This document shows, piece by piece, positions 20,839 through 36,746 of a stretch of 64,000 nucleotides of DNA. The position numbers and the translations under genes are program-made. Position 1 is the first letter of the stretch, and every line of letters begins with the position of its first letter. The DNA lies in assembly GCF_001180185.1 (NCBI RefSeq), contig NZ_CVSS01000037.1, positions 1 through 64,000 of the forward strand, read 5' to 3'. A model generated the notes under the pieces. That model was not told where the DNA came from, did not search any database, and saw only the letters and a program-made list of their open reading frames with translations. This stretch comes from Candidatus Pelagibacter communis. Its GTDB lineage: Bacteria; Pseudomonadota; Alphaproteobacteria; Pelagibacterales; Pelagibacteraceae.

Positions 20839-20943
20839 ATGGCTAATTTGTTTCTAATTGCGATTTGCATTATAATTGCAATTGCTTTAATACTATTTCC
20901 ACTATTAGTGTCATACAAAGAACAAAAAAATAAAAAAAAATAA
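20839..20943 (+). CDS. 34-residue membrane miniprotein coupled to Yip1-family gene
   Basis: This tiny reading frame encodes a single hydrophobic helix (LFLIAICIIIAIALILFPLLV) followed by a basic tail (YKEQKNKKK). Its stop shares one base with the ATG of the Yip1-family gene (TAATG at 20941-20945), as in many authentic pairs of this window. It could be a leader peptide or a small partner of the downstream membrane protein. No family is recognised. Confidence 0.45.
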   Translation: MANLFLIAICIIIAIALILFPLLVSYKEQKNKKK

Positions 20944-21485
20944 TGTTTGCTGAATTTTTGAATATAGTTTTTAAATCAATTAAATTAGATAGATCATTAT
21001 ATAGTGATAATAAAAATTTTGGTGAAGCTGCTATTTATTTTGCTGGAATAATTATGATTTTGGATGGTATAGCCGGAGCTATAGCCGCGAATACTGTTAT
21101 TAAGACTGCTATAGCAATGTCAGGTCTTACAGCAATAATTACATGGTTAGTATGGGGTATTTTTATATATGTAATAGGAGTTAAACTTTTTCCAGAAAAA
21201 CAAACAAAAGTTCCATTTAAAAAAGTTTTGACTGCTGTGGGTTACGCTCACGCACCAGGATTAATCCGTTTTTTTGCTGTTACCCCTGAGTTAATGGTAC
21301 CAATAATTTTTCTTACACAGTTTTGGATTTTTGCAGCTTTAATTATATCAACTAAACAAATTCTAAATTTGAAATCTAATCTAAAATCCTTTGGAATTGT
21401 ATTTTTATCTTTTTTGATAATTGCATTTTTGTCTATCTCATTTGTAATGAGTAGAATGAATATTCTTCCAGTAAATAATATCTAA
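20943..21485 (+). CDS. Yip1-family membrane protein
   Basis: This 180-residue protein has about five hydrophobic segments and an N-terminal cytoplasmic stretch (KSIKLDRSLYSDNKNFGEA). The layout, with FKKVLTAVGYAHAPGLIRFFAV before the last helices, is that of Yip1-domain proteins. In bacteria these are inner-membrane proteins of unknown role. It is coupled to a 34-residue membrane peptide upstream and converges on a small zinc-ribbon gene, whose end it overlaps by 4 bases. Confidence 0.7.
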   Translation: MFAEFLNIVFKSIKLDRSLYSDNKNFGEAAIYFAGIIMILDGIAGAIAANTVIKTAIAMSGLTAIITWLVWGIFIYVIGVKLFPEKQTKVPFKKVLTAVGYAHAPGLIRFFAVTPELMVPIIFLTQFWIFAALIISTKQILNLKSNLKSFGIVFLSFLIIAFLSISFVMSRMNILPVNNI

Positions 21486-21652
21486 ACTGGATAAATTGTC
21501 TTTGAAATTCTACAAGAATTGCAAATCTTGAACCCAGTTAATATCAAATTTTGAGACACACTGTCATCAATTACTTTACATTCATCACAAACACCATTTA
21601 ACTCCTGGATGTTGTCTAGATTTTCAATTTTTTCTTTATCTTTATCAATCAT
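21482..21652 (-). CDS. Small zinc-ribbon-like protein (56 aa)
   Basis: This 56-residue protein has two CxxC pairs, CDEC (22-25) and CNSC (44-47), spaced as in a zinc ribbon and preceded by an acidic and lysine-rich N-terminus. Its ATG lies within the last codons of the DUF3726-like gene (8-base overlap), so it is co-translated as the last gene of a four-gene minus-strand operon. The function is unknown. Binding of zinc is inferred from the cysteine spacing. Confidence 0.6.
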   Translation of the reverse strand: MIDKDKEKIENLDNIQELNGVCDECKVIDDSVSQNLILTGFKICNSCRISKTIYPV

Positions 21653-22256
21653 TGTCCGTCAAACCGGCACCAGCAGCACTATTTTTTAAACTATCTGACT
21701 CTTCAACAAATGTTTCCTCGGAAAGCTTGTATAAACTTTTCCATTCTACTTCAGAAAAATTATCTGTATTTTCTAAAAAAAAAATTTCAACATTGTTTGC
21801 AAATTTTAGAAAAATTTGATTTGGTTTATTTGATAAAATATTAATATTAAAATTTAATTGATATTCAGCTTGATCAAATTTGACACGAATTCTTTTACCT
21901 ATTATTTCAGAACTTCTACTTAAAAAAGGTAAAATCAGTAATGGAAAAGAAATTTTATCAAATTTAATCATTTTAAATTTTTCAAGATTTTTAATTTGAT
22001 CTAAAATACTTATTCCAAGCAGTATTGGGCAATAAGGGTATTTTTTTGAATTATTATTTTCAGTGATTAAACTTATACTTTCAAACTTTTCTTGATTTCT
22101 TGAAATATAATATTTATTTAAGCTTTTTATTCCTTCTAGTCCAAATAATTCAAGCAAACGAATATTTTTTCCAATCTCCTCTGCAATTCCCCAGGAAAAT
22201 CCTGCAGCCCTACTTGCGCGTTTTGAGGTTGTTTCTATTTCACTAAGTGATTTCAT
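21645..22256 (-). CDS. DUF3726-like protein
   Basis: This 203-residue protein begins MKSLSEIETTSKRASRAAGF and continues with SWGIAEEIGKNIRLLE, the pattern I associate with DUF3726. The rest is a beta-rich soluble domain without an evident catalytic motif. No function is known for the family to my knowledge. It lies 8 bases after the 551-residue unknown gene and overlaps the small zinc-ribbon gene, so all are one transcript with the variant M19 peptidase gene at the head. Confidence 0.6.
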   Translation of the reverse strand: MKSLSEIETTSKRASRAAGFSWGIAEEIGKNIRLLELFGLEGIKSLNKYYISRNQEKFESISLITENNNSKKYPYCPILLGISILDQIKNLEKFKMIKFDKISFPLLILPFLSRSSEIIGKRIRVKFDQAEYQLNFNINILSNKPNQIFLKFANNVEIFFLENTDNFSEVEWKSLYKLSEETFVEESDSLKNSAAGAGLTDND

Positions 22257-22264
22257 AAATTTAT

Positions 22265-23920
22265 TTAGCTGTTATAGACCCACTGTTGATCAATATTTTT
22301 TAATTCATTTGGTAAAGGAGCTCCTTGGAACATGCATATTCTCAGCCATTTATCTGATCTAGGATCAAATTTTAATGCTCCGAAAAAAGACAATTTTAAT
22401 CTAAGCATATCAATTGGAATTACTTTTTCTCCAATCGTATTATCTTGAATTTCGGAATATGGAAATTTTTCAACTATAAAGGCTCTTCTAACCACATGTC
22501 TTAAATCACTATTTTGAAATAAAAATTTATCAATTGTGAGGTTTTCACTAGTGACAGTAACTTTATCATATAAATTTTTGATATCTCTGGCAATCGCTAA
22601 CGGCTGCTCTAACTCAGATCCGTTTTCCTCAAATCTATCAGCATATCTTGGTTCTTCTTTATTTTTTGAAATGAACCAAAAGTTTTTATAATTTTCTTTT
22701 TTATGAAAATCAATTTTTAAGATTTCAGAGTATTTTTGCTCAATTATTTTTTTTAAATCTCTAACAGTTCTATGAGCTGGTATTGTAAAATATTTATCCT
22801 CATCAGAGCTCATTTTTTTAATCAATGGTTTCACTATTTCATCAAAAGGCTCCAACATTATAGAAACTACGTATTCTATGCATTCATAACACATCCTGTT
22901 ATCTAGCCATGAATAGATCTCATTAAATGGATAATCAATTCCAAAATCAAATTCAGTTTCAATAAACTCAATAAATTTTTTTATATCCTTTAAAAGAAAA
23001 TTTAACTTTTTTTGCTGATATTCATTATCTGTATTCCAGCTTGTAATATTTTTAAGGGAATTTCTTAAACTAATCTTAAATATCTTGATTTCATTTAAGT
23101 CCACTTTTTTTAATTCCCTAATCTTTTTTAAAGCAATTTCTCTACTCATTATCCAATTATTTAATAATGTTGGATGATTTACAATAAATGGTGCCATGCC
23201 AAGCCCAGTCGAATTACCAATACCCAAACTTTTACAAATTTTATTATCTAATTTCACTGCTGTTTTTGGAGACTTAGATTTCGCTACATGATTAACTTGA
23301 TCAAAAGTGAATTGTCTTACAAGATAAACTAGCATCATCTCAAGTCTAAATGGACCATTTATTTCCTTTCGGTTTTTTATTCGGAATCGATCTGCAAGTC
23401 CAAATTTTCCTGACCCATAAACAGCAGTCGTTCTATAAAGATATCCAACTTTACTTAATAGCTTTAAATCTGGTTGATTGCCCTTGCTTAAACTATCAAC
23501 TACATGATTGAATAGTCTTATCGATTTATTTGCTCTAGAAAGAGTTAATTCCTTGTATGACAGTCTGCCGACTTCTTGTCTTGGAACTTCGTTTCTTAAC
23601 CTACTTAAATCTTCTTTAGTAGGAACTCCATCGTGTAAAGTAAATGCTGCATCCCATTTAGTTGCAATAACTCTGTCAGATCTTTCTTCATCATTTATTT
23701 CATTAGCAAAACATACTAATGAATAAACTCTATCTTTTTTTTGAAAAGAGTAAACTGCAGTTCCATGGCCATTTTCATTCAAATCAAATAAATCTCTATT
23801 ATATTTCCAATCTTTAAACTCATCTAAAAAACTTCTTAGAAAGGACAATTTAGATTGATGAAATGATCCTAATCTAGATAATTTCATAATATCTTTTGGA
23901 TTTCTTAATTTTACTTCCAT
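22265..23920 (-). CDS. Conserved-looking protein of unknown function (551 aa)
   Basis: I do not recognise this 551-residue soluble protein. It has no signal peptide, membrane segment or nucleotide-binding loop that I can see. Notable stretches are an N-terminal LGSFHQSKLSFLRSFLDEF, HGTAVYSFQKKDRVYSLVCF (about 53-72), an arginine-rich LYRTTAVYGSGKFGLADRFR (about 167-186), GNSTGLGMAPFIVNHPTLLN (about 236-255), and PAHRTVRDLKKIIEQKYSE further on. Its size and glycine-rich motifs suggest an enzyme. Its stop is 8 bases from the DUF3726-like gene, and its start directly follows the stop of the M19-type gene, so these proteins likely share a pathway. Confidence 0.75.
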   Translation of the reverse strand: MEVKLRNPKDIMKLSRLGSFHQSKLSFLRSFLDEFKDWKYNRDLFDLNENGHGTAVYSFQKKDRVYSLVCFANEINDEERSDRVIATKWDAAFTLHDGVPTKEDLSRLRNEVPRQEVGRLSYKELTLSRANKSIRLFNHVVDSLSKGNQPDLKLLSKVGYLYRTTAVYGSGKFGLADRFRIKNRKEINGPFRLEMMLVYLVRQFTFDQVNHVAKSKSPKTAVKLDNKICKSLGIGNSTGLGMAPFIVNHPTLLNNWIMSREIALKKIRELKKVDLNEIKIFKISLRNSLKNITSWNTDNEYQQKKLNFLLKDIKKFIEFIETEFDFGIDYPFNEIYSWLDNRMCYECIEYVVSIMLEPFDEIVKPLIKKMSSDEDKYFTIPAHRTVRDLKKIIEQKYSEILKIDFHKKENYKNFWFISKNKEEPRYADRFEENGSELEQPLAIARDIKNLYDKVTVTSENLTIDKFLFQNSDLRHVVRRAFIVEKFPYSEIQDNTIGEKVIPIDMLRLKLSFFGALKFDPRSDKWLRICMFQGAPLPNELKNIDQQWVYNS

Positions 23921-24886
23921 TTAAATATTTTTATAAAAATTAAACCAATTATTACCAAGTATACCATTAGTCTCATTTGCCGAAAAACCAACTTTTTTTA
24001 ATCCTGTTTCTAAGTTTTTAAAACCTCTGGCGTCTTGAAACCAACCAGGTTGTTTTGGAAATCCTGGCTTTTTTTTTGTTCCTTCTCCATAATTTTTTAT
24101 TTTAGACCAGGTGCCATTTCTCATCCAATCAACAACCGCATCAGGTTGATCTAAACATAAATCAGAGCCAATTCCTATATTTTCTACACTCATAATTTCA
24201 GCTGTTCTTGCAGCCATTTCACAAAAGCTTTCTAGTGTACACTTGCTATTTTCCTTTAAATGATGTGGATATAAAGAGAGACCTAGCATTCCCTTACTTT
24301 CTCCTAGAATTTTTAATAAGTCAGTTGATTTATTTCTTTTGGCTGCATGCCAAAAATTTGGGTTTGCATGGGTAATTGCTATAGGTTTTTCACTAAGTTC
24401 TATTGCATCGAATGTACTTTTTTCAGCTGAGTGAGACATGTCTACAACAATACCAACTCTATTCATTTCTCTTATTGCTTCCTTTCCAAAATTAGTTACT
24501 CCACTATCAATTTTTTCATAACATCCAGTCGCAAGTAATGATTGATTGTTGTATGTCAATTGCATAAACCTACAACCTAAATTATGAACTTTTTCAACTA
24601 GATGAATATTGTCTTCTATAGGAGAACAATTTTGAAACCCAAAAAAAATAGCTGTTTTATTTTCTTTTTGTGCTTTTTCAATATCTTTAAAATTTTTTCC
24701 CAAAAAAATTAAATCTGAATTTTCATTAAATAATTTTTCCCATTTTTTAATTTCAATTAATAATTCATCATAATCTTCATGATAGACTATAGTGACATGA
24801 ACAGCATCTAGATTCGCTTCTCTGTTTATTTCAAATATTTTTCGACTCCATTTGCAATATTGTAGGTTATCTATTCTATAATTCAT
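23921..24886 (-). CDS. Variant membrane dipeptidase (M19) family protein
   Basis: This 321-residue M19 (renal dipeptidase-like) TIM-barrel protein shows the family pattern from FMQLTYNNQS through NRVGIVVDMSHS to PIAITHANP and IGIGSDL. Compared with canonical M19 enzymes, the N-terminal HxD metal pair is replaced (DNLQY, so Leu8 and Tyr10). The bridging glutamate is Gln85 (FFGFQNCSP). H152, H173 and the late aspartate are kept. It may therefore bind one metal or cleave a different substrate. No signal peptide is seen, so it is cytoplasmic. It heads an operon with three genes of unknown role. Confidence 0.8.
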   Translation of the reverse strand: MNYRIDNLQYCKWSRKIFEINREANLDAVHVTIVYHEDYDELLIEIKKWEKLFNENSDLIFLGKNFKDIEKAQKENKTAIFFGFQNCSPIEDNIHLVEKVHNLGCRFMQLTYNNQSLLATGCYEKIDSGVTNFGKEAIREMNRVGIVVDMSHSAEKSTFDAIELSEKPIAITHANPNFWHAAKRNKSTDLLKILGESKGMLGLSLYPHHLKENSKCTLESFCEMAARTAEIMSVENIGIGSDLCLDQPDAVVDWMRNGTWSKIKNYGEGTKKKPGFPKQPGWFQDARGFKNLETGLKKVGFSANETNGILGNNWFNFYKNI

Positions 24887-29831: not shown

Positions 29832-30419
29832 TTATATGGTTTTAAACCCAAATTCTAAAGACGCATCAGTAATAGAGTGATAAAATGATTCTCCAAAACT
29901 TCTAAGTGTAAATAACCTTACTTTTTCAGGGTTGGTATCAAGCATATCAATGGTAAATGCTATTCCATTATAAGTTGAATTTATTGAATTATTTTTTTCT
30001 AAAGTATTGAAGTTAAAAGGACAACCTTTTTTTAAAACTTCTCTAGTATTTTTTCCCTCAAGTTCAATTATTGCTTTAGAGTGAGACAAATCAGTAACTG
30101 CAAAATCTGATTCGTTGCAAACATTGAGAAGATTATTAATTAGATCTTTTTTTGAAGACACTAAAAGCCAATTTTTTGGTCCGTTCCATAAAATTCTTGT
30201 ATCACTATTAGATGTTACTTTTAATGGTTCATTATTAAAATTTAAATTATCTATACTTATATTTTCTAAAGAAACTTGAGAATTTTTATACTGAACTATT
30301 TGAATAATTAACAAATTTTTTAACTCTGAAATCTTTAGGAGTTCTCTCTCATTTTTATCCTTATAATCACCAAATTGGCCCTTAGAGTGAATATTTGCTA
30401 AAGGTGATATTAAATTCAT
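29832..30419 (-). CDS. soxG: Sarcosine oxidase gamma subunit (or NMG dehydrogenase MgdD)
   Basis: This 195-residue small folate-domain-like subunit of heterotetrameric sarcosine oxidase is recognised by RILWNGPKNWLLVSSKK, FAVTDLSHSKAIIELEGKNTRE and VRLFTLRSFGESFYHSI. It stabilises the complex near the alpha subunit. It overlaps soxA by four bases (ATGA). Because N-methylglutamate dehydrogenase (MgdABCD) has the same subunit architecture, the whole complex could oxidise N-methylglutamate instead of sarcosine. Confidence 0.85.
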   Translation of the reverse strand: MNLISPLANIHSKGQFGDYKDKNERELLKISELKNLLIIQIVQYKNSQVSLENISIDNLNFNNEPLKVTSNSDTRILWNGPKNWLLVSSKKDLINNLLNVCNESDFAVTDLSHSKAIIELEGKNTREVLKKGCPFNFNTLEKNNSINSTYNGIAFTIDMLDTNPEKVRLFTLRSFGESFYHSITDASLEFGFKTI

Positions 30420-33412
30420 GATCTAACCCTTTCACCTTTTGGGTCAACATAATGTGAAGAAACTATTTCAACTGGAATTATTTTATTTTTTAAAGGGGAC
30501 ATCACAAATAATTTTTTACCGATCATATTCTTTCCATCTTTAAGAATAGCCAAAGAAAATGGATTATCGTGTTCTACACTCCAGCATGATGCCGAAATAT
30601 AACCTAATTTTGGGTTAGGTAGTGGTGCATTAGAGTCTTTTACTAAATGGGAGCCCTCTGGAATAGTTGTTTTCTTATCTAAAGGGACTACTCCTACTAT
30701 TCTTTGTCTATCAGCAGCTACAAATGCAGCTCTTTGTAATGATCGTTTTCCAATAAAATCTTTTTTTTTACTTATTAGGCCATCTAACGCATTATCGTAA
30801 GGGATTGTTCTCCCGTCAAGTTCCGAGCCCGCAACATGGCCCATCTCGATACGTAGTGTAGATAGTGCTTCTGTTCCGTACGGTTGAATTTTAAATTCCT
30901 GACCTAATTCAATGATTTTTTCCCACATATAGTTACCACTATCCGACTTTACGTTCACCTCATAAGCCAACTCACCTGAGAATGAAATTCTAAAAATTCT
31001 TGCCTCTGTACCAAATAAATCTGCCTCCATGTAACCCATAAATGGCAAATTTTCATTGGATACATTATCCTTTGGAAATAATTTTTGTAATAAAGCTCTT
31101 GATTTTGGTCCAGCTATTGCTGCGCCAGCCCATTGTTCAGTTGTTGAAACTACATTTACATTTAATTCTGGCCAAACAAGTTGTAAATAATATTCAAGAT
31201 GTGAAAGTACATTTGCTGCTTGAGCTGTTGTTGTGGTCATATGATAATGGTTTTCTGAAATTCTTGTGGTAGTTCCATCATCCATTACTATACCATCTTC
31301 TCTTAACATAACTCCGTATCTAGCTTTACCAATTGGCAATTTCAACCAAGCGTTAGTATAAATTCTATTTAAAAACTCTGCAGAGTCAGGGCCTTTAATA
31401 TCTATTTTACCTAAAGTTGTAACATCACAAACACCAACATTGGTTCTAACATTTTTAGCTTCTCTTTTAGAGGCTTCAAATAAAGTTTCATTTCCTATCT
31501 TATAGTATCTAGGTCTCAACCAAACTCCAGCATCTACAAAAACTGCATTATTCTTTTCATGCCATGAATGCATTGGTGATTTTCTGGTTGGTTTTGAGTG
31601 TTTACCAATTTCTCTTCCAACTATGGCTCCAATTGAAACTGGTGAGTAAGGAGGTCTAAATGTTGTATGACCTACTGCTGGAACAACTTTATTCTCAATT
31701 TCAGACACAAGTTGTAATCCATTTAAGTTACTCGTTTTACCTTGATCTGTAGCCATTCCAAGTGTTGTATACCTTTTAACATGCTCAATTGATCGGTAAC
31801 CTTCTCTTAACGCTAGCTCTATATCTGTAACAGCAACATCATTTTGAAAATCTAAAAATCTTTTGTAATTTTTTCCTTTTGGCAAAGGTACGCACCAAAA
31901 CTTATCGTGCTTTGAAGATTTTTTTTCAACTACATTTGGTATTGAGATTTCATTTTCTTTTTTTGTTATTTTTTTTGATATTTCATTTGCTGCTTTAAAT
32001 GAAGTTTTTAAGGTATTCTGAAGTGAAAAAATTCCATTAGCTGCTCCTAAAGTAGTTTCTTTTTGTTTAGATTTACCGGGAACAAAGGCGTCTATTTCTT
32101 CATTAAATTTTGTTTTATTACCTGATTGAGAAGCGAGATGAATAGTTGGTGTCCAAAAACCAGAAACACATATACAGTCGCATTTTATATTTTCAATTTT
32201 TCCTAATTGTTTTTTGTCTTCTGAAATACCTGCAATATCAGCAGATTTTACTTTTTTATAACCCTGAGCAGCAACAACAACATAAGAAAATTTTATTTTG
32301 ATTCCAAGATTAATTGCCTCATCAATAATTTCTCCGCTAGGGTTTTTTCTTGAATCTAAAACAATTGGATCGATCCCATTTTTTTTAAATTCAATGGCCG
32401 TTTCATAACCACTATCATTATTTGTAAATACTAAAGGATTTTTTCCAACTAAAACGCCATAAACTTTAAGATATTCTTTTGCTGCTGATGAAAGCATTAC
32501 ACCAGGAGTATCATTATTTCCAAAAACTATAGGTCTTTCAATAGATCCTGAAGAAATCAAAACTTCTTTTGCTCTGATGTACCAAAGTCTCTTGTTTGGG
32601 TGAAATTTTTTTGTTTGTGGCAAGTGATCGCTCACCTTCTCAGACATTACAAGCATATTATGATCGTAATATCCAAAAATTTGTGATCGATTTTTGATAG
32701 TTACATTGGGCATTTCTTTAAGTTCTGAAATAATACTCTCAGCCCAATCTTTTCCTGATTGATTTCCAATATTAACATCACTAGTCAAAAGAGATCCTCC
32801 AAATCTAGGTTTTTCCTCTGCTAAAATTACTCTTGCACCATTTTTTGCAGCTGTATATGCGCTTGCCAATCCTGAAGGTCCCGATCCAGCAATTAATAAA
32901 TCACAATATTCGTATTTATGTTCATACCTCTCTTTATCGTGCTCGGTTGACGCAACACCTAGTCCAGCTGCTTTTCTAATAAATGGTTCATAAACTTTAT
33001 ACCAAAAACTTTTTGGCCACATAAATGTTTTATAATAAAATCCAGCTGGTAAAAAAATATTCAAAAAATTATTTATTGCCCCGACATCAAAATTTACACT
33101 TGGCCAACAATTAACACTTTTTGCCTCTAGACCTTCAAAAAGTTCTTGTTCTGTGGCTTTAATATTTGGTTCAGTCTCCCCATTTCTATAAAGCTGAACT
33201 ACAGCATAAGGTTCATCAACTCCTGCTCCAAAAAAACCTCTTGGTCTATGATATTTAAAGCTCCTTCCTACTAAATGAACTCCATTAGCTAATAGTGCTG
33301 ACGCTAAAGTATCTCCTTCGTATCCAAAATAATTTTTACCGTTAAATTTAAATGAAATCTTTTTATCTCTATTTATAAGTCCAATATTTTGTAATCTATA
33401 ATTTTGAGACAT
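30416..33412 (-). CDS. soxA: Sarcosine oxidase alpha subunit (or NMG dehydrogenase MgdC)
   Basis: This 998-residue alpha subunit has an N-terminal ferredoxin-like domain without cluster cysteines (GDTLASALLANGVHLVGRS), a nucleotide-binding domain with IAGSGPSGLASAY (about residue 174), and C-terminal GcvT and GcvT_C domains (about 600-990) that bind tetrahydrofolate. The complex oxidises sarcosine to glycine and passes formaldehyde to THF as methylene-THF. Its start overlaps the soxD stop by one base (TAATG at 33414-33410). Length matches the family. The alternative substrate is N-methylglutamate. Confidence 0.9.
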   Translation of the reverse strand: MSQNYRLQNIGLINRDKKISFKFNGKNYFGYEGDTLASALLANGVHLVGRSFKYHRPRGFFGAGVDEPYAVVQLYRNGETEPNIKATEQELFEGLEAKSVNCWPSVNFDVGAINNFLNIFLPAGFYYKTFMWPKSFWYKVYEPFIRKAAGLGVASTEHDKERYEHKYEYCDLLIAGSGPSGLASAYTAAKNGARVILAEEKPRFGGSLLTSDVNIGNQSGKDWAESIISELKEMPNVTIKNRSQIFGYYDHNMLVMSEKVSDHLPQTKKFHPNKRLWYIRAKEVLISSGSIERPIVFGNNDTPGVMLSSAAKEYLKVYGVLVGKNPLVFTNNDSGYETAIEFKKNGIDPIVLDSRKNPSGEIIDEAINLGIKIKFSYVVVAAQGYKKVKSADIAGISEDKKQLGKIENIKCDCICVSGFWTPTIHLASQSGNKTKFNEEIDAFVPGKSKQKETTLGAANGIFSLQNTLKTSFKAANEISKKITKKENEISIPNVVEKKSSKHDKFWCVPLPKGKNYKRFLDFQNDVAVTDIELALREGYRSIEHVKRYTTLGMATDQGKTSNLNGLQLVSEIENKVVPAVGHTTFRPPYSPVSIGAIVGREIGKHSKPTRKSPMHSWHEKNNAVFVDAGVWLRPRYYKIGNETLFEASKREAKNVRTNVGVCDVTTLGKIDIKGPDSAEFLNRIYTNAWLKLPIGKARYGVMLREDGIVMDDGTTTRISENHYHMTTTTAQAANVLSHLEYYLQLVWPELNVNVVSTTEQWAGAAIAGPKSRALLQKLFPKDNVSNENLPFMGYMEADLFGTEARIFRISFSGELAYEVNVKSDSGNYMWEKIIELGQEFKIQPYGTEALSTLRIEMGHVAGSELDGRTIPYDNALDGLISKKKDFIGKRSLQRAAFVAADRQRIVGVVPLDKKTTIPEGSHLVKDSNAPLPNPKLGYISASCWSVEHDNPFSLAILKDGKNMIGKKLFVMSPLKNKIIPVEIVSSHYVDPKGERVRS

Positions 33413-33681
33413 TACGATATCTCCTCATCAGCTTTTAGTGTATTAAATATTTCATGAGTAGCTGTATCTCTCTCAACTTTTATCCATTGTCTACATCCTG
33501 AAAGATGTTGCCATAACTCCCAGTGTTTTCCTCTCAAACTTTTTCTATTATAAACAAAATTATCCCAATCCTTATCTGAGATTTCCTGATTTAATTCTGG
33601 TCTTTTTACACTTGCATCTCCTCCATAGGAAAATTCATTTTGTGATCTCAAACCACAATGTGGGCACTTTATATGAAGCAT
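33412..33681 (-). CDS. soxD: Sarcosine oxidase delta subunit (or MgdB)
   Basis: This 89-residue zinc subunit has CPHCG at the N-terminus (cysteines 6 and 9), and HLSGCRQW supplies the remaining histidine and cysteine ligands. ELNQEISDKDWDNFVYNRK and GKHWELWQH are the classical delta-subunit motifs. It sits between soxB and soxA, adjoining soxB and overlapping soxA by one base, so all four subunits are made in one transcript in the order B, D, A, G. Confidence 0.92.
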   Translation of the reverse strand: MLHIKCPHCGLRSQNEFSYGGDASVKRPELNQEISDKDWDNFVYNRKSLRGKHWELWQHLSGCRQWIKVERDTATHEIFNTLKADEEIS

Positions 33682-34938
33682 TTATGAGATCCAAGTTTTG
33701 GTACCAAGTCCTTTTTCATCAAGTAAGTAACCTGTATTAAATCTTTTTAAGCTATATCCTGAATTTAATTCATGAACTTTATCTTGTGCAATCGTGTGAG
33801 CGAAAGTCCAACCTGAGGCTGGAGTAGCTTTAAAACCTCCATAACACCAACCACAATTTAAATATAACCCTTCGATATGAGTTTTGTCTATGATCGGCGA
33901 ACCATCCATTGACATATCCATTATTCCACCCCATGTTCTTAACATCTTAAGTTTGCTGAGGAAGGGCATCATTGCAATTCCCTCAGTTAACACATGTTGT
34001 AATGTTGGCAAATTTCCTCTTTGAGCATAACTATTATAACCATCTAGATCTCCGCCCATGACCATCTCACCTTTATCTGATTGACTTATATAAAAGTGAC
34101 CTGCACCAAAAGTTACTACTTTATCTAAAACTGGTTTAACTGGTTCTGACACACATGCTTGTAAAAGATGTGTTTCTATCGGTAAAGTCATATTCAATTT
34201 TTCAGCTAAAATATTTGTGCTACCAGCAACACATAGACCTATTTTTTTTGCTTTTATGTTTCCACGTGATGTTCTAACTCCATTTATTTTTCCTGCAGAT
34301 ACATCGAATCCTATAACCTCACAATTTTGAATTATATCTACACCCATAGAATCTGCTTGACGTGCATAACCCCATGCTACAGCATCATGTCTTGCTGTTC
34401 CTGCACTTGGCTGCATTAAACCTCCAAAAATTGGAAATCTTACATTTTCAGAAAAATCTGCCATTGGAATAATTTCTTTTACTTGTTCTCTGTTAAGTAA
34501 AACTGCATCAATACCATTCAATCGCATTGAGTTTCCTCTTCTTGCATAAACATTCATTTGAGCATCAGAGTGTGCGAGATTTATTATACCCCTAGGAGAA
34601 AACATCACATTATAATTTAAATCCTGGCTCATGCTTCTCCATAAATCCATTCCGAACTCACTGAATAAACCATTGTCATCATGCATGTAATTTGATCTAA
34701 TAATTGTCGTATTACGACCTACATTTCCTCCACCAATCCAGCCTTTCTCTATGATTGCAACATTTGTTATATTGTGTTCTTTTGCCAAATAATATGCTGT
34801 AGCTAATCCATGGCCTCCACCACCAATAATCACAACATCATACTCATTTTTTGGAGTTGGATCTTTCCAAGCCAAATCCCAATTTTCATGGTTAGAGAAG
34901 GCATTTTTTATTAAGCTGAATATTGAATAATTTTGCAT
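33682..34938 (-). CDS. soxB: Sarcosine oxidase beta subunit (or MgdA)
   Basis: This 418-residue catalytic flavoprotein has the FAD loop VVIIGGGGHGLATAYYLAKE (about 35-54). SAGTARHDAVAWGYARQAD contains the histidine that carries covalent FMN in heterotetrameric sarcosine oxidases. It oxidises the N-methyl substrate and passes electrons to the alpha-subunit side. It heads the soxBDAG operon and is divergent from fhs across a 122-base gap. The pairing with Fhs makes sense, because Fhs connects formate with folate-bound C1 units. Confidence 0.92.
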   Translation of the reverse strand: MQNYSIFSLIKNAFSNHENWDLAWKDPTPKNEYDVVIIGGGGHGLATAYYLAKEHNITNVAIIEKGWIGGGNVGRNTTIIRSNYMHDDNGLFSEFGMDLWRSMSQDLNYNVMFSPRGIINLAHSDAQMNVYARRGNSMRLNGIDAVLLNREQVKEIIPMADFSENVRFPIFGGLMQPSAGTARHDAVAWGYARQADSMGVDIIQNCEVIGFDVSAGKINGVRTSRGNIKAKKIGLCVAGSTNILAEKLNMTLPIETHLLQACVSEPVKPVLDKVVTFGAGHFYISQSDKGEMVMGGDLDGYNSYAQRGNLPTLQHVLTEGIAMMPFLSKLKMLRTWGGIMDMSMDGSPIIDKTHIEGLYLNCGWCYGGFKATPASGWTFAHTIAQDKVHELNSGYSLKRFNTGYLLDEKGLGTKTWIS

Positions 34939-35060: not shown

Positions 35061-36746
35061 ATGAGTGAAGTTAAATCAGACATTCAAATAGCTAGAGAAG
35101 CAAAAATGAAGCCGATAAAAGATATATTGGCTGATATAAACGTACCAGATGAAAGTTCAGCTTTTAGCCCAATGGGAAGGCATATTGCGAAAATTAATCT
35201 AGATTTCATAGATAATTTAAAAAATAATAAAGATGGAAAATTGATTTTAGTAACTGCAATTACGCCTACACCGGCTGGTGAAGGTAAAACTACTACTTCT
35301 GTTGGTCTCACAGATGGGCTTAATAAAATTGGAAAAAAATCTATTGTGTGTCTGAGAGAACCAAGCCTTGGGCCATCTTTTGGATTAAAAGGAGGAGCTG
35401 CTGGAGGAGGTTATGCTCAAGTTGTTCCTATGGAACAAATTAATTTACATTTTACTGGAGATTTTCATGCAATAACCTCCGCTCATAATTTATTATCTGC
35501 TTTAATAGACAATCATATTTATTGGGGAAATAAGTTAAATATTGATGTTAGAAGAATTTCTTGGAGAAGAGTAATGGATATGAACGATAGATCTCTAAGA
35601 TCAATTATTGTTGATCTTGGAGGTGTTGCAAATGGTTATCCACGTCAGGATAGTTTTGATATCACTGTCGCTTCTGAATTAATGGCAATTTTTTGTTTAG
35701 CAAAAGACTTAAAAGATTTAGAAAACAGAATAGCAAATATAACAATAGGTTATACGCGTGATAAAAAAGCAATATTTGCAAAAGATTTAAATGCTCAAGG
35801 ACCAATGACTGTTTTATTAAAAGAGGCAATTCGACCTAATGTCACTCAAACACTAGAGAATAATCCAGCCATAATTCATGGTGGACCATTTGCAAATATT
35901 GCACATGGATGTAACTCAGTGATTGCAACAAAAGCAGGATTAAAGTTGGCAGACTATGTCGTTACAGAAGCTGGTTTTGGAGCTGATCTCGGTGCAGAAA
36001 AATTTTTGAATATTAAATGTAGAAAATCTGGGATTAAACCTGATTGTGTGGTGATTGTTGCAACGATTAGAGCTCTAAAAATGCATGGTGGACTTTTAAA
36101 AGAAGAATTAAAAAATGAAAATGTAAGTGCATTAAAAAAAGGTTTAACAAATTTAGAGAGACATATAAATAATATAAGAAAATTTGGTCTACCTGTTACA
36201 ATAGCAATAAATCATTTCATTAATGATAGTGATAAAGAGATGAAAACTTTGTTAAATTTCTGTAAAACTCAAGGAGTAAAAGCTTCCAAATGCACACACT
36301 GGTCAAATGGAAGTGAAGGAACAATAGAATTAGCAAAAAATGTGATTGAAATTTGTGAAGATAATCAAGATACATTTAAATTTTTATACGACGAAAAACT
36401 TCCATTGTTTAAGAAAATTGAAAAAATTGCACAAGAAATTTATCACGCAAGTGAGGTAGTTGCAGACACTAAAGTAAGAACGCAGTTAAGAGAGTTTGAA
36501 GAAAAAGGTTATGGAAAACTTCCAGTTTGTATTGCAAAAACACAATATAGTTTTTCAACTGATCCTAATCTTAAGGGGGCCCCTACAGGTCACGTTCTTC
36601 CGGTTAGAGAAGTTAGATTATCATCAGGAGCAGAATTTATTGTGGTGGTATGTGGAGAAATAATGACTATGCCTGGTCTACCAAGGATACCTGCTGCAGA
36701 TTCTATAAAATTGAATAAAAAAGGTGATATAGAGGGATTATTTTAA
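35061..36746 (+). CDS. fhs: Formate-tetrahydrofolate ligase
   Basis: This 561-residue ATP-dependent ligase joins formate to tetrahydrofolate, or runs in reverse to make ATP during C1 oxidation. The P-loop is [15 protein letters not shown] (68-82). [32 protein letters not shown] and [14 protein letters not shown] are signature stretches. Length is normal. It is divergent from the sarcosine oxidase operon and upstream of the trimethylamine monooxygenase gene, so it sits at the centre of C1-generating genes. It likely converts methyl groups taken from N-methyl compounds to formate and ATP. Confidence 0.96.

Follow-up and report, generated by a model that had tools for sequence, protein, structure and literature searches.

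The window analyzed here, a stretch of 64,000 nucleotides, comes from Candidatus Pelagibacter communis (assembly GCF_001180185.1, denoted G000 below, with 62 contigs and 77% completeness; contig NZ_CVSS01000037.1, positions 1 to 64,000). Four open reading frames on its minus strand, separated by gaps of 0, 8, and −8 bases exactly as a preliminary description of the sequence had placed them, encode a variant M19 peptidase of 321 amino acids (aa), a 551-aa protein, a 203-aa protein resembling DUF3726, and a 56-aa protein with four cysteines (Table 1). That description treated all four genes as one fixed module; we found that the real unit comprises the first three and is distributed far beyond SAR11, which are very abundant ocean bacteria. 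These three genes are likely to be the SAR11 form of a bacterial catabolic module for homarine (N-methylpicolinate), a nitrogen-containing compound from phytoplankton.

The three-gene unit and its distribution

The 551-aa gene is plainly coding, with an open frame and 62–83% identity in 40 of 61 relatives, 17 of which belong to the second family of the order (presumably to be counted as SAR11), and it was matched in the 80 loci kept; related contigs bear the label Pelagibacteraceae (SAR11). Members of the 551-aa family were detected in 53 of 386 Alphaproteobacteria and in 38 of 397 Pseudomonadota genomes, 9 of these 38 lying outside Alphaproteobacteria. DUF3726 gave 43 matches among the 386 Alphaproteobacteria (42 above the Pfam cut-off), and all 43 are located on the same strand as the 551-aa match and 14–121 bases downstream of it, measured between match boundaries and with a fragment row from genome G131 kept out of the count (G and L numbers denote genomes and loci of our set). 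None of the 333 genomes without a 551-aa match contained DUF3726 (Fisher p = 8e-48, the genomes not being independent). The 10 genomes that encode the 551-aa protein and have no PF12525 match include cut contigs and divergent paralogs; in G302 and G353, a DUF3726-like open reading frame was found with a custom profile.

Close M19 matches, retained at E 1e-100 or better so that weaker relatives are uncounted, numbered 51 in 50 of the 386 genomes, and 48 of these 50 have the 551-aa family. With fragments of one gene merged, the M19 gene is less than 300 bases from the 551-aa gene for 41 of the 51 matches (one on the opposite strand) and within 2.2 kb for 5 more; the 551-aa match is on another contig in G142, G114, and G092, and G305 and G418 have none. 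From the 551-aa matches, 44 regions with flanks were taken, chosen for diversity. Outside Alphaproteobacteria, the DUF gene downstream of the 551-aa gene is divergent in the four loci examined (L180, L181, L182, and L188): two of these genes give weak profile matches (E 4e-5 and 1e-4), and the other two only cluster with them. The expectation that the families co-occur thus held for the trio in Alphaproteobacteria and, with divergent DUF3726-like proteins, in other Pseudomonadota, but it did not extend to the zinc-ribbon gene.

In a tree of 32 members of the 551-aa family (midpoint root), the window protein belongs to a supported group of 27 that also includes the Roseobacter forms and forms from outside Alphaproteobacteria, and the rhizobial and haloarchaeal relatives form a separate deep group. 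Plasmids of Sinorhizobium, Phaeobacter, Vibrio, and others carry the family (168 records), and one Vibrio plasmid carries both the M19 and the 551-aa gene; no relative was found on viral contigs. On a Sinorhizobium meliloti plasmid (L208, 8007–11453), a 551-aa relative with 23% identity lies with genes for a hypothetical protein and a dipeptidase next to IclR regulator and ABC transporter genes; this distant version probably acts on another substrate. On a plasmid of the haloarchaeon Natrinema versiforme (L207, 5053–13303), a 551-aa relative has genes for an aldehyde dehydrogenase (ALDH), a hypothetical protein, and a BCCT transporter nearby.

The 56-aa protein retains its four Cys residues in 12 of 12 aligned rows and is plausibly zinc-ribbon-like, as had been described; its gene has a different distribution. 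It was detected in 25 of 61 relatives, every one in a single genus (g1), and gave no match in the 24 genomes searched from the second family of the order, which carries the trio at 8 loci (L023–L030). Conversely, in L214, L212, and L213 (genomes G016, G029, and G036, which are 81, 92, and 77% complete), the order of purE, the 56-aa gene, a gene for a 180-aa protein, and a dmdA-like gene is intact, and the M19, 551-aa, and DUF3726 genes are missing. The empty sites (L212, 5661–5750; L213, 5946–6060; L214, 5645–5721) lie in otherwise syntenic relatives and leave about 77–115 bases between purE and the 56-aa gene (match boundaries). In G030, the 56-aa gene and the module are on different contigs; in G020 and G021, a 56-aa match without a 551-aa match is located near a contig end and is therefore uninformative, G020 also retaining a piece of DUF3726.

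The notion that the four genes make up one module, with the zinc-ribbon protein as a fourth subunit or regulator in Pelagibacter, draws on the 8-base overlap with DUF3726 and on the adjacency of the two genes in most Pelagibacteraceae loci. Because the 56-aa gene is kept where the trio is missing, we read the overlap as packing rather than shared function; with no match beside the trio in the second family either, a four-gene module appears very improbable, and we rejected the zinc-ribbon gene as a member. With the trio patchily present at a fixed spot, the gain or loss of this trait is readily traced across SAR11.

Features of the M19, 551-aa, and DUF3726 proteins

The 321-aa protein belongs to the M19 family (PF01244, residues 19–318, E = 2.1e-67, 228 bits against a cut-off of 26). 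Classical M19 peptidases (renal dipeptidase) have a binuclear zinc site with a bridging Glu. In the profile alignment, His152, His173, and Asp242 are conserved in the variant, whereas Gln85, invariant in 27 rows, aligns with the Glu of the classical dipeptidases; these four positions are, we assume, metal-ligand sites. The preliminary description had noted an altered metal site, and the alignment agrees: with Gln85 in place of the usual Glu, a binuclear site with a bridging Glu does not appear to be present. The first 29 residues lack His where we would expect an HxD motif, a region outside the coverage of the alignments to classical dipeptidases. The closest solved structure is 2i5g, also an M19 protein. 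We propose that the variant releases formate or cleaves the N-acyl bond of an intermediate resembling N-formyl-N-methylglutamate.

The 551-aa protein had been described as devoid of recognizable motifs, and we likewise found nothing that would give it a family or a pathway. The window protein gave chance-level matches in Pfam and none in NCBIfam (searched with this copy only; the search did not extend to PHROGs and PADLOC), and none of 32 diverse members had a Pfam match at E 0.01. In a profile search of the PDB, the best hit, V-ATPase subunit C, was not significant (E 0.032). Structure prediction, which the preliminary description had recommended for this protein above all, produced a model with a pLDDT of only 67 and no fold match: Foldseek returned nothing at E 0.001 or better, and the best VIA candidate (9va7, Z 4.9 over 86 residues) was rejected as not meaningful. 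The family is rich in conserved arginines, with 13 invariant in an alignment of 35 rows, from which loci of unusual length or low score are omitted; in the wider set of 32 members, eight arginines are invariant.

The 203-aa protein is a DUF3726 protein (PF12525, E = 3.3e-22, 78.6 bits against a cut-off of 22.1), in line with the initial assignment; our literature search found no paper on this family. Its AF2 model (49 rows, pLDDT 86) was most similar to 15 entries of the malate/L-lactate dehydrogenase type 2 (Ldh2) fold (Z 8.4–10.3), and the next entry scored 3.5; the comparison tool warns that Z values under about 8 can reflect a common arrangement. These alignments span 156–185 residues with root-mean-square deviations (rmsd) of 3.5–11.4, and include that with 1wtj, delta1-piperideine-2-carboxylate reductase (Z 8.8, rmsd 4.2, 165 residues). 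The match is restricted in that DUF3726 has 203 residues compared with 312–361 in the matched chains, and the SHG stretch of Ldh2, which has a catalytic role, has no counterpart in the DUF3726 profile alignment. A profile alignment of DUF3726 with the Ldh2 genes that neighbor the module was suggestive only (probability 54%, E 1.3e-4), and a second one gave a probability of 10% (E 0.003). An rmsd above 8 in 11 of the 15 structural alignments speaks against the Ldh2 relationship. The other comparisons were negative: Foldseek found no structure at E 0.001 or below (best 9.5e-3), the sequence-profile search of the PDB found no chain, and PF02615 was absent among Pfam matches up to E 1. On balance, the model suggests that DUF3726 is probably a truncated relative of Ldh2, retaining the fold of the substrate half, and not a catalytic member of that family.

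The last 18 residues of DUF3726 are predicted to be disordered, and in SAR11 the tail ends almost invariantly in GAGAGLxDND; across 15 diverse rows, GAG alone is invariant in the tail, and the end is mostly DND. A conserved disordered tail would fit one that folds onto a partner. An ambitious and, in our estimate, unlikely extension is that the 551-aa protein and DUF3726 jointly represent a novel enzyme class in which an N-methylpyridinium ring is opened with no classical oxygenase involved, the GAGAGLxDND tail of a domesticated half of an Ldh2 reductase reaching into an arginine-rich active site of the 551-aa protein. A direct fusion of Ldh2 with the 551-aa protein, suggested by an apparent 909-aa open reading frame in L183, was discarded, given that by coordinates the Ldh2 match is in another frame.

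Genomic context and a proposed route for homarine

The neighborhoods of the module in larger genomes provide clues to its substrate, as had been anticipated. Counts were made over 52 flanked loci that we chose, many of them related and some cut or divergent; each count includes the locus of the query itself, and matches covering less than half of the query were dropped, so that Sox alpha subunits truncated at locus ends and many DUF3726 genes go uncounted. Of the 52 loci, 20 contain an ALDH at least 50% identical to that of L197, 15 an Ldh2-type dehydrogenase, 9 a BCCT transporter (at least 49%), and 7 both ProX and ProV. Other ALDHs, 33–36% identical, lie beside the module in L217, L219, and L220. 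The gene order in Ruegeria TM1040 runs from sarcosine-oxidase alpha and gamma type genes through an AraC-type regulator, LysR, ALDH, M19, BCCT, 551-aa, and DUF3726 to Ldh2. Phaeobacter inhibens DSM 17395 shares this order, although its Ldh2 match is unannotated, and carries in addition a further module copy that lacks BCCT. The set of six genes (ALDH, M19, transporter, 551-aa, DUF3726, and LysR) is complete in both, and three of the six are adjacent in the window. Operons of the sox type, which may encode either N-methylglutamate dehydrogenase (Mgd) or sarcosine oxidase, adjoin the module in L205, L211, and L219; in L175 a single gene intervenes, and in the window the distance is 5 kb. A type III glutamine synthetase (gmaS-like) is encoded close to the module in L217 and, by similarity, in L218 and L220. 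The betaine transporters, ALDHs, and N-methyl amino-acid oxidase type genes point to breakdown of a nitrogen compound, as suggested earlier; for a cyclic peptide-like metabolite, also suggested, we found nothing pointing to such a substrate.

The AraC and sarcosine-oxidase-type genes of TM1040 and P. inhibens resemble and would fit the pair tmaR-mgd. A passage of PMC13390433 states that tmaR, of the AraC type, adjoins mgd in many cases and, citing Ferrer-Gonzalez et al. 2026, that Mgd acts in homarine catabolism; part of another paper reports that Ruegeria pomeroyi draws homarine down fast (PMC12817926). We take homarine as the likely substrate because Mgd is tied to it in that passage and because AraC and sox-type genes lie beside the module.

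Ferrer-Gonzalez et al. 2026 (Nat Microbiol 11:1531) reportedly describe an operon homABCDER with an N-methylglutamate intermediate and report it in SAR11; the five genes and regulator of TM1040 are presumably the homABCDER set. The arrangement LysR-ALDH-M19-BCCT-551-DUF3726 beside mgd-like genes in TM1040 and P. inhibens resembles that operon, whereas Pelagibacter holds three of the genes together, without an adjacent ALDH, transporter, or regulator; the TM1040 proteins to be set beside it are WP_011536996–WP_011537000. The pathway has therefore probably been described in print already. The earlier statement that the module has no known function is thus probably outdated. In the titles and openings of abstracts that make up most of what was covered of the homarine literature since 2023, the operon is not presented. 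Within the literature checked, the strict pairing of the 551-aa protein with DUF3726, the fold of the latter, the removal of the zinc-ribbon gene, and the assignment of the sox operon are new.

In the scheme that we infer (substrate, order of steps, and protein roles alike), homarine would be taken up by a transporter of the betaine type, whose gene adjoins the module in many larger genomes but does not do so in Pelagibacter. Activation and opening of the pyridinium ring may fall to the 551-aa protein and its partner subunit, DUF3726, and an ALDH would oxidize the aldehyde so produced. The M19 variant might then remove the ring carbon adjacent to the nitrogen as formate, yielding N-methylglutamate, which the heterotetrameric Mgd, probably the product of the soxB2D2A2G2 operon 5 kb away, would convert to glutamate and a one-carbon unit; the fhs product possibly uses the released formate. 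In formulas, the overall balance is homarine (C7H7NO2) + 4 H2O → N-methylglutamate (C6H11NO4) + formate (CH2O2) + 2[H]. It calls for one net two-electron oxidation, which the ALDH could supply, and for no obligatory oxygenase; a route that uses O2 together with reductions balances as well. Since the alpha carbon of N-methylglutamate is the carboxylated carbon, the carbon lost is the ring carbon next to N if the skeleton is kept. An N-formyl intermediate followed by an amidohydrolase would be the simplest route and fits the M19 protein. The degradation of trigonelline (tgn) is comparable in that its substrate is an isomeric N-methylpyridinium carboxylate and in that ring opening is followed by ALDH and amidohydrolase steps; it differs in that no oxygenase is recognizable among the three genes of the module. 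A passage of PMC8269262 holds that homarine is an unlikely substrate for the TgnA/TgnB oxygenase system.

As to which SAR11 operon encodes Mgd, part of a 2011 paper (PMC3160333) left undecided whether it is soxBDAG or soxB2D2A2G2, and in strain HTCC1062 places fhs at SAR11_1285 and soxB2D2A2G2 at SAR11_1281–1284. The sox-type operon of the window matches TIGR01372 and TIGR01373 above the cut-offs and was the single sox set found in G000. The module-linked alpha subunit of TM1040 scores 405–417 bits to one SAR11 set and 318–354 to the other (G012, G255, G341, and G050), and the higher scores belong to the set that neighbors fhs in the window and directly adjoins the module in L219. Together with this position, the comparison favors soxB2D2A2G2 as the better candidate for the SAR11 N-methylglutamate dehydrogenase that would use the product of the module. 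The 2011 question thereby becomes testable.

Two other schemes have to be weighed against this one. Homarine might be opened by hydration to N-methyl-2-aminomuconate semialdehyde, from which a RidA-type deaminase would free methylamine, N-methylglutamate then arising only through gmaS-mgs. A RidA-type gene in several operons points this way, as do the type III glutamine synthetase of L217 and, in the window, gmaS- and mgs-like genes named by eye. The ALDH of the L188 operon matches ring-cleavage semialdehyde dehydrogenases (HpaE third, OH_muco_semi_DH lower), all below the cut-off, its best match, alpha-ketoglutaric semialdehyde dehydrogenase, being below the cut-off too. However, RidA is present in only 5 of the 52 loci (L188 query), besides an annotated RidA gene in L204, and the passage of PMC13390433 names Mgd for homarine and notes that strains lacking the upstream genes show the tmaR-mgd linkage; we regard release of free methylamine as rather doubtful. 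Alternatively, the substrate could be a different betaine, either N-methylated or derived from a cyclic amino acid; candidates include proline betaine, hydroxyproline betaine, trigonelline, and similar compounds. The logic would be unchanged, with a transporter, cleavage of the ring or of an N-C bond, ALDH, and Sox or Mgd, and the neighboring betaine-type transporters and N-methyl amino-acid oxidases leave the substrate unfixed. The M19 relative 2i5g, which we take to be PA5396 encoded beside the dimethylglycine genes of Pseudomonas, leans the same way. That Mgd is linked to homarine in the same passage of PMC13390433, and that AraC- and Mgd-like genes directly adjoin the module in TM1040 and P. 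inhibens, makes another betaine quite unlikely.

A number of observations weigh against the homarine assignment. The 551-aa protein has one invariant histidine, in the 35 rows and in the wider set alike, no invariant cysteine, and no recognized cofactor motif, so that the chemistry proposed for it is speculative. The Pelagibacter module has no dedicated ALDH or betaine transporter next to it. Identity to the operon-type ALDH is 27–36% for the ALDHs of G000 and 28–36% for those of the complete genomes G012, G255, and G341; the ProX-like match in G000 is weak, and among the Pelagibacter genomes tried neither the ALDH nor the ProX of the L197 operon has a close ortholog. A DJ-1/PfpI domain is present in the AraC-type candidates for tmaR in TM1040 and P. 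inhibens; the gmaS-like neighbor would also fit release of free methylamine; and in G212, of another family, the two sox sets nearly tie in their scores to TM1040 (359 bits near the module against 356). The family cannot serve marine homarine only, because Shinella and Aminobacter (the latter from soil) hold members of the window's subfamily, and S. meliloti and a haloarchaeon have distant versions with IclR regulators. Our literature search found no source stating that these gene families degrade homarine; part of PMC8269262 reports homarine to be poorer than trigonelline for growth of R. pomeroyi. If the homarine assignment is nevertheless true, the flow of phytoplankton carbon and nitrogen becomes traceable by these genes, and the identity of the ring-opening protein, proposed to be the 551-aa protein together with DUF3726, becomes testable; a later correction holds, in the part concerned, that homarine concentration had been overstated through an impure standard (PMC10134881).

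The surrounding genes

Table 1. Features of the window considered in this work
Feature	Coordinates	Strand	Remarks
M19-type amidohydrolase, 321 aa	23921..24886	-	PF01244; putative function
551-aa protein, proposed ring-opening core	22265..23920	-	No recognized family; putative function
DUF3726 protein, 203 aa	21645..22256	-	PF12525; predicted truncated Ldh2 fold; companion of the 551-aa protein
56-aa four-cysteine protein	21482..21652	-	Neighbor, outside the module
soxBDAG-type operon (soxB2D2A2G2 by place beside fhs)	29832..34938	-	TIGR01372, TIGR01373; candidate Mgd
Formate-tetrahydrofolate ligase gene fhs	35061..36746	+	Named by eye and by position relative to part of PMC3160333

The module lies within a dense run of genes for methylated compounds and one-carbon metabolism (17420–61439), several of which were named by eye. 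The run contains a Rieske GbcA-like gene, a pair of MetF-like and DmdA-like genes, the soxBDAG-type operon, fhs, a tmm-like gene, a betaine ABC transporter, a trimethylamine N-oxide demethylase-like gene, and gmaS/mgs-like genes; the fhs-, tmm-, and gmaS/mgs-like genes, named by eye, lie inside 37 kb of the window. The gene for the 180-aa protein (20943–21485), which has no Pfam family, is convergent with the 56-aa gene (21482–21652) with a 4-base overlap, and in loci that lack the module this pair and the dmdA-like gene still occur together.

Plasmid pPGA1_262 of P. inhibens carries two copies of the module (L204 and L211), one by dimethylsulfoniopropionate-demethylation genes and the other by sox/mgd-type genes. 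In L217 (6829–7428), L218 (10946–11545), and L220 (11700–12299), a gene for a 199-aa protein lies on the stretch that separates the module from the glutamine-synthetase-like gene; the protein of L217 belongs to no NCBIfam family, and a 209-aa protein of L219 looks related by eye.

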